In this document: piece by piece, positions 8,231 to 10,015 of the stretch
How positions within the stretch are numbered: the first letter of the stretch is position 1
Layout: each line of letters opens with the position of its first letter
Assembly: GCA_017744935.1 (NCBI GenBank)
Contig: JAGIAI010000035.1
Location: forward strand, 27,177-91,176
DNA length: 64,000 bases
Direction of reading: 5' to 3'
Source of the DNA: Variovorax sp.
GTDB taxonomy: Bacteria > Pseudomonadota > Gammaproteobacteria > Burkholderiales > Burkholderiaceae_C
Position numbers and translations under genes: made by a program
The notes under the pieces: model-generated
Seen by the model: the letters and a program-made list of their open reading frames with translations, nothing else
What the model was told of the DNA's origin: nothing
Databases searched by the model: none

Positions 8231-8312
8231 CACGTCCCCGTTGGAAGGCGCGCAGGACATCGCATTCGAGCTGCTCTGATACGAATTTGCGTTCAGGAAT
8301 ATAGGTCGCGCG

Positions 8313-8552
8313 TCGCGGCAGGGGGTCTGGGGCGCGGACTCCTGCCAGGGCGGTCGGCGCTTTGCGCCGACTTCACTGCGGTGCTCGCCTGGGGGCGGCG
8401 CCGCAGAACTCACTGCGTGCCCCTTCGGTGCACTCCGTTCAAACAGCTGCGGCGAGTCAGATTACGAAGCGCGTGTCTTCGCACGCGCCCGCCCCCAGGC
8501 TGCGCTCCTCGTCGCCCCGGAAGTCGCCCACGCCCCAGACCCCCTGCCGCGA
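8313..8552. repeat. MITE-like element A: 240 bp bounded by 22-bp perfect terminal inverted repeats
   Basis: TIRs tcgcggcagggggtctggggcg (8313-8334) and cgccccagaccccctgccgcga (8531-8552); core shared with element B in opposite orientation. Confidence 0.75.
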
Positions 8553-8663
8553 AGTGACATCGTGCTTGTGCAACCGCGCACCCGAGCATCGGCTTTTCTG
8601 TCTGCGCTGCGGGTCATTCCCATCTGCGTCGCACCGAACGCTGAAACCGGCGCAACGTCTCCA

Positions 8664-8885
8664 GCCGGGGCGCCTGGGGGTGGGCTGCGGTGCGCCTATG
8701 GGGCGCCGAGGAGCGCAGCGCGGCCGGCTGCGCGTGCGAAGACACGCGCTTCGTAATCCGACTCGCCGCAGCTGTTTGAACGGAGTGCACCGAAGGGGCA
8801 CGCAGTGAGTTCTGCGGCGCAGCCGGCCGCGCGAGTACCGCAGGGAAGTCTGCGCAAAGCGCAGACCGCCCCCAGGCGCCCCGGC
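8664..8885. repeat. MITE-like element B: 222 bp bounded by 17-bp perfect terminal inverted repeats, inverted relative to element A
   Basis: TIRs gccggggcgcctggggg (8664-8680) and cccccaggcgccccggc (8869-8885); core 8700-8868 is the reverse complement of about 8350-8518 with few differences. Confidence 0.75.
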
Positions 8886-8976: not shown

Positions 8977-9348
8977 ATGTCCAGCCCGAATAGTTCGCGT
9001 CCCGAAGCCATCGACCGTTTCACGCGCGGTCTGCCGGCCGTTTCGGCCACCAAGCTGGTCGCAGGGATGCAGAAGGTCACCAGCGCCGTCATGACGCACG
9101 GCGCCGTGGTCGTCACCCGCCACGACGAGCCGGCCATGGTGCTGATGTCGATCGACCGCTACCTCGCGCTCGAAAAGGCGGCCGAACCTGATCTGGATGC
9201 GCTCACGCAGCAGTTCGACGACATGTTCGCCAGCATGCAGGGCGACGCCGCCGCCGCGGCGATGGAAGACGCCTTCGCGATGACACCGCCCGAATTGGGC
9301 AAGGCGGCGGTCCGCGCCGCAGGCGGCAGCAAGTCCGCCAAGAGGTGA
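8977..9348 (+). CDS. Phd/YefM-like type II antitoxin
   Basis: VSATKLVAGMQKVTSAVMTHGAVVVTRHDEPAMVLMSIDRYLALE pattern; directly precedes zeta-like kinase. Confidence 0.75.
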   Translation: MSSPNSSRPEAIDRFTRGLPAVSATKLVAGMQKVTSAVMTHGAVVVTRHDEPAMVLMSIDRYLALEKAAEPDLDALTQQFDDMFASMQGDAAAAAMEDAFAMTPPELGKAAVRAAGGSKSAKR

Positions 9349-9358
9349 CCCCCCACTG

Positions 9359-10015
9359 ATGGTCGCGCGCATCTTCGTTCTCGCGGGCGTCAACGGAGCG
9401 GGCAAGAGCAGCATCGGTGGCGCGGCGCTCGAGGCGCGCAAAGTCCCCTACTTCAATCCCGATCTCGCAGCGCGCAAGCTGCTCGACACCAATCCCACGC
9501 TCACCCAGGAAACGGCCAACGCGCAAGCCTGGGAAATGGGTCGCGCCGGCCTCGAACGCGCGCTGGCCGAGGGCCTCAACTTCGCCTTCGAAACCACGCT
9601 GGGCGCGCGCACCCTTCCCGACATGCTGCTCGCCGGCGCGCGCAAGGGTGCGCAGGTCCATGTCTGGTACGCCGGCCTGCAATCGCCCGAGAAACACGTC
9701 GAGCGCGTGAAGGAACGCGTGATCGCCGGCGGCCACGACATCCCCGAAGACAAGATCCGCGCACGCTATGTCACCAGCCGCGCGAACCTGATCCGCCTGT
9801 TGCCGCACCTCGCAAGCCTGCGCGTATACGACAACAGCATCGACGGCGATCCCAAGGCCGGCATCAAGCCGCAACCCACGCTGATCCTGCACATGGAAGG
9901 CGGCCAGGTCGTCTCGCACATCGACCTCGAGCTGGTGCCGCAATGGGCCAAGCCCGTGGTCGCCGCAGCCTTCGACGCGACGAAGAAGAAAGCGACGAAG
10001 GGGCGGCCGCACTGA
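9359..10015 (+). CDS. zeta toxin-like P-loop kinase
   Basis: Walker A GVNGAGKSS; LNFAFETTL; GGHDIPEDKIRARY..S..NL. Confidence 0.85.
   Translation: MVARIFVLAGVNGAGKSSIGGAALEARKVPYFNPDLAARKLLDTNPTLTQETANAQAWEMGRAGLERALAEGLNFAFETTLGARTLPDMLLAGARKGAQVHVWYAGLQSPEKHVERVKERVIAGGHDIPEDKIRARYVTSRANLIRLLPHLASLRVYDNSIDGDPKAGIKPQPTLILHMEGGQVVSHIDLELVPQWAKPVVAAAFDATKKKATKGRPH

Follow-up and report, generated by a model that had tools for sequence, protein, structure and literature searches.

A composite inverted repeat of two branched hairpins, dispersed between genes in Variovorax and related bacteria

Introduction

The window analysed here, a stretch of 64,000 nucleotides from one contig of a Variovorax sp. 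genome, contains at positions 8313-8885 two neighbouring inverted repeats, A and B, with closely related interiors in opposite orientation and with different ends. The locus raises the question of whether these are two mobile elements that share an exchangeable module, or parts of a single larger structure, and what such a structure might be. The original prediction regarded them as two separate MITE-like elements with a shared core and swapped termini, possibly modular and non-autonomous, or alternatively as a structured intergenic repeat family. Among known small repeats, a REPIN pairs two REPs in inverted orientation around a diverse spacer and is non-autonomous, with singlets representing decaying remnants (PMC8049555); REPs measure 20-40 bp (PMC3733652), and bacterial MITEs are shorter than 200 bp in a review (PMC2229807). 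The repeat described here, frequent in a bacterial family that has been heavily sequenced, is named in none of the family databases and papers searched.

Anatomy of the locus

The predicted boundaries of A and B held to the base, as did the perfect repeats at their ends (Table 1). The interiors are indeed reverse complements, with 92% complementarity between arms 8394-8518 and 8700-8824, 90% between arms 8348-8388 and 8831-8871, and a single mismatch between 8398-8487 and 8731-8820; in an overall alignment, the 2 cores are identical at 157 of 169 positions (93%). When folded as RNA, the whole region yields z = −19.95 against shuffles, and A and B folded separately as DNA yield −8.6 and −8.1, respectively, which, along with homologues in dozens of genera, excludes chance. 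None of the ORFs inside the element matched a Pfam or NCBIfam family, in agreement with the predicted lack of a plausible ORF and arguing against a single degenerate gene. The spacer, described as non-repetitive, has the predicted length and is single-copy in this genome, but belongs to the repeated unit elsewhere (genome G152).

Table 1. Features of the locus in window coordinates.
Feature	Coordinates	Strand	Remark
Half A	8313..8552	+	Branched hairpin with a closing stem of its own; full-length homologues with own covarying stem in many genomes
A closing stem, left arm	8313..8334	+	22-bp perfect inverted repeat
A closing stem, right arm	8531..8552	-	Partner of 8313-8334
A conserved core	8348..8518	-	Reverse-complement orientation
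Spacer from A to B	8553..8663	.	111 bp; single-copy here; equivalent conserved between G152 copies
Half B	8664..8885	+	Second branched hairpin
B closing stem, left arm	8664..8680	+	17-bp perfect here; 33 bp in sister genome G384
B closing stem, right arm	8869..8885	-	23-bp deletion relative to G384
B conserved core	8700..8871	+	
3'-end remnant of an ORF intact in G019	8243..8279	+	Left flank of the element; matches ORF 3' end
Phd/YefM-like antitoxin gene	8977..9348	+	
Zeta-toxin-like kinase gene	9359..10015	+	PF06414 above cut-off; after the antitoxin gene

Two halves of one unit

At 194 loci, cores lying close to one another were arranged head to head, core(-) before core(+), in 111 cases and the other way round in 3, with six same-direction pairs, probably split matches, set aside. 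Nine aligned pairs from five genomes invariably read A - spacer - B, with the closing stems changing on both sides together. Rather than two separate MITE-like elements, A and B are thus the fixed halves of a single composite element. The notion of swapped, modular termini did not survive comparison either: closing stems also bound other copies, and across genomes each type of terminus keeps to its own type of core, A to A and B to B. Because the branched fold of each half is maintained by compensatory change, the seemingly private terminal repeats of A and B are the closing stems of the respective halves, whereas the complete unit extends beyond them on both sides. No outer inverted repeat is recognisable at the window copy, the exact ends of which are therefore uncertain.

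Such ends are apparent in the complete genome G152, in which a covariance model identified 14 cores: 6 pairs, in each of which the offset is 248 bp, and 2 B-only copies. Between two of the G152 copies at unrelated sites, L117 and L118, identity is 96.8% across 533 bp that include the spacer, with sharp ends. Four units in this genome, of 615, 616, 615, and 385 bp, lie within an outer inverted repeat of 19 bp, GGCCCTTTRCTGAAGTTCG and its complement, which is found in exactly 8 places, all of them ends of these units. Both B-only copies (L123 and L126) carry a stump of the A stem, like the copy in G384; single units are therefore decayed doublets. The halves can also differ in history: in genome G056, the copies at L037 and L038 are 99% identical in their B halves and 87-88% in their A halves, perhaps due to conversion between copies.

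A fold conserved within each half

Alignment of 53 cores, with those of A and B set in one orientation, gave a structure of 39 pairs, derived from the same alignment on which the changes were counted, in which 29 pairs display two-sided changes and 95% of the cells are paired; the covariation score of 0.50 compares with 0.16 for shuffled alignments and at most 0.10 for slid structures. The conserved fold lies within each half. Within genomes, identity ranges over 83-99% between A halves, 89-99% between B halves, and 64-71% between A and B, and an A half resembles the B half of its own element no more than it resembles B halves of the other copies in that genome. A giant hairpin formed by A and B together was accordingly rejected as the conserved structure. 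Given that A and B cores elsewhere are about 69% alike, the 93-98% match in the window represents local homogenisation, and it was these near-identical cores, peculiar to this locus, that had suggested module swapping. The simplest explanation would be templated correction from arm to arm, either by template switching in the hairpin or by conversion.

The element resembles the structured non-coding RNAs of Rfam in having a secondary structure conserved by compensatory base changes, which alone do not separate RNA from palindromic DNA. Were each half a folded RNA domain, for example a terminator, a stabiliser of mRNA 3' ends or a processed RNA, the covariation would reflect selection on RNA, and its very high strength accords with this possibility. 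So does the excess of G-U over A-C combinations (69 versus 15 in core orientation), according to which folding of a single strand matters. However, wobble pairs occupy 3.4% of the cells, compared with 8.1% in RNase P RNA from 24 genomes of the family, many of them also sources of the cores, analysed by the identical procedure. Furthermore, the two cores of a unit occupy opposite strands, so that no single transcript could contain both in sense orientation, and none of the 4227 Rfam families reached the gathering score in the window, with hits to the region at relaxed limits being at chance level. The wobble and G-U/A-C counts fit single-strand folding and, while not decisive, favour DNA over the usual selection on RNA; we consider a structured RNA unlikely. 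The element offers a natural case of structure conserved much better than sequence, and a caution against taking compensatory changes in a DNA palindrome as proof of an RNA.

Distribution and genomic context

Within the GTDB family of the window, matches (E<=1e-5) were found in 117 of 300 sampled genomes and 62 of 141 genera, and core matches in 9 of 61 genomes of the same genus, so that the core is not single-copy among relatives; two candidates were scored per genome in the family search, which makes copy numbers lower bounds. Among the matches listed in a pattern scan of named genomes are Rubrivivax, Piscinibacter, Methylibium, Rhodoferax, Rhizobacter, Variovorax, Xenophilus, Paucibacter, Inhella, and others. 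The source genome itself (118 contigs) carries a diverged relative of B on contig C59, and the covariance model identified additional diverged cores, a pair on C54 and others on C62 and C1. Class-wide, 19 of 274 genomes were positive with this model, including members of other families, several of which (e.g., G549 and G659) contain diverged inverted core pairs. Copies are often located at contig ends. The window unit had no match in plasmid or phage collections, nor did the units of two relatives in the plasmid collection. We found no description of such a repeat in Comamonadaceae or Burkholderiales in open-access papers, which is not proof of novelty.

Only 2 of 184 places lie within an ORF. 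At places with a called gene on either side, the flanking genes were tandem in 63 cases, convergent in 30, and divergent in 7, compared with 488, 150, and 138, respectively, for all neighbouring ORF pairs at the same loci; the counts come from a simple ORF caller, with a gene missing on one side at 82 places. This preference for gene 3' ends and avoidance of divergent promoters would suit the folded RNA considered above, whereas the patchy presence, not tied to particular genes, would not. Among 243 ORFs near copies, orthologues and common families alone recurred, with no other recurrent neighbour gene or cargo. Some orthologous copies have been kept between species (L043/L046/L104 and L062/L067), suggesting that movement may be rare or ancient. 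The alternative of a structured intergenic repeat family, also raised in the original prediction, is strongly supported, and we regard the element as a non-coding composite repeat of old origin and wide distribution, made up of two diverged units of ~230 bp in inverted arrangement.

The window locus in relatives

The sister genome G384, which is 97% identical over the left flank, has an intact B with a 33-bp closing stem that includes a single wobble position; the window B has lost 23 bp of its right arm (Table 1). By contrast with B, the A half of G384 has been reduced to the stem stump by a deletion of ~200 bp between a pair of CCTGCC repeats. Sites devoid of the element were found in 3 relatives. 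In G392, the LysE gene is joined to the phd promoter by 23 bp; in G019, an intact ORF lies between the LysE and phd genes, and the last 37 bp of this ORF persist beside the window copy; in G387, the element is absent between the same two genes. The phd/zeta toxin pair occurs without the element in relatives and is therefore not its cargo.

A long conserved palindromic structure located between genes could also be expected of a nucleoid- or repair-associated palindrome that serves chromosome architecture and does not move. However, the core is missing from most sampled members of the genus, and close relatives can lack the element, or have lost it, at a locus where others carry it, which renders this explanation highly improbable.

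Mobility and relation to known repeats

Starting from the observed arrangement, covariation, dispersal of whole units, loss of A and presence or absence at the window locus, we infer that the composite double-hairpin repeat spreads, in a REPIN-like manner, as a non-autonomous mobile element moved in trans, a reading to which, the structural description included, we assign a probability of roughly two in three. Each ~230-bp unit folds into a multi-branched hairpin with a separate closing stem, and the A-B pair is enclosed, in the most complete copies, by a further outer inverted repeat. A transposase acting in trans might then recognise the folded strand or the outer ends, by analogy with the copying of REPINs by RAYTs. 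Insertions in genes and promoters would presumably be lost, so that the element would settle mainly at gene 3' ends.

The predicted non-autonomous mobility is supported indirectly, by the dispersed copies and the empty sites, but neither a target-site duplication nor a partner transposase was found. No duplication was seen at the four best-bounded G152 copies, the exact ends of other copies not being fixed, and no ongoing insertion was observed among the sampled genomes, which include one genome per species and thereby place recent insertions beyond the reach of comparison. No transposase with matching ends was found in G152, where the outer repeat is confined to these elements, and none recurs beside copies. 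The Y1_Tnp domain (E<=1e-5) was present in 6 of 8 genomes tested and absent from G152 and G242, both of which carry the element; RAYT was therefore rejected as a necessary mobiliser for these two genomes.

These results bear on a strict REPIN/BIME population mobilised by RAYT, the Y1 tyrosine transposase. The element shares with REPINs and BIMEs the inverted palindromic doublet with asymmetric halves and a short spacer, the decaying singlets, the intergenic location and the lack of coding capacity (cf. PMC8049555). It differs in its branched units of ~230 bp, which greatly exceed the REP length cited above, in the outer inverted repeat around the pair, and in the lack of RAYT from two element-bearing genomes, one of which (G152) harbours 6 pairs. 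Unit size and the missing Y1 transposase indicate that the element is not a REPIN by membership, and a strict REPIN population mobilised by RAYT is improbable; REPINs nevertheless provide the nearest working analogy.

Similarly to MITEs such as Correia/NEMIS, RUP, and ERIC, the element is small, non-coding, intergenic and dispersed, with empty sites and, in G152 though not recognisably at the window copy, bounding inverted ends. Unlike these MITEs, it is GC-rich and, at ~570-615 bp, exceeds the size of <200 bp reported for MITEs (PMC2229807); neither TA ends nor a target-site duplication was seen, and no IS with matching ends was found. The covariation model and the defined ends render the element searchable and testable.

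Forms with long outer arms

Long outer arms are strong in some genomes only, as at L200 and L206. At these two loci, as well as at L170, L218, L224, and L240, the inverted core pair lies inside much longer outer arms, which bear hairpins such as ACTTTCTTTTGCTTCGCCAAAAGAAAGT and GGCGACCCC. The long-armed forms may represent the full-length form of a larger superfamily. A broader proposal, namely, a class-wide superfamily of double hairpins with outer inverted repeats, which would propagate through a folded single strand using neither RAYT nor a classical DDE transposase, strikes us as rather doubtful. Similar long arms surround the diverged pair L273 of G549 (contig C180), where an inverted palindrome of the CATTCCCGCGCAGGCGGGAATCCA type flanks the element, so that repeats are nested in repeats. 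Finally, at L037 (G056, contig C3, 23.4-30.7 kb), two nearly identical A-B units lie in opposite orientation with ~6 kb of ordinary genes between them, a possible substrate for inversion.
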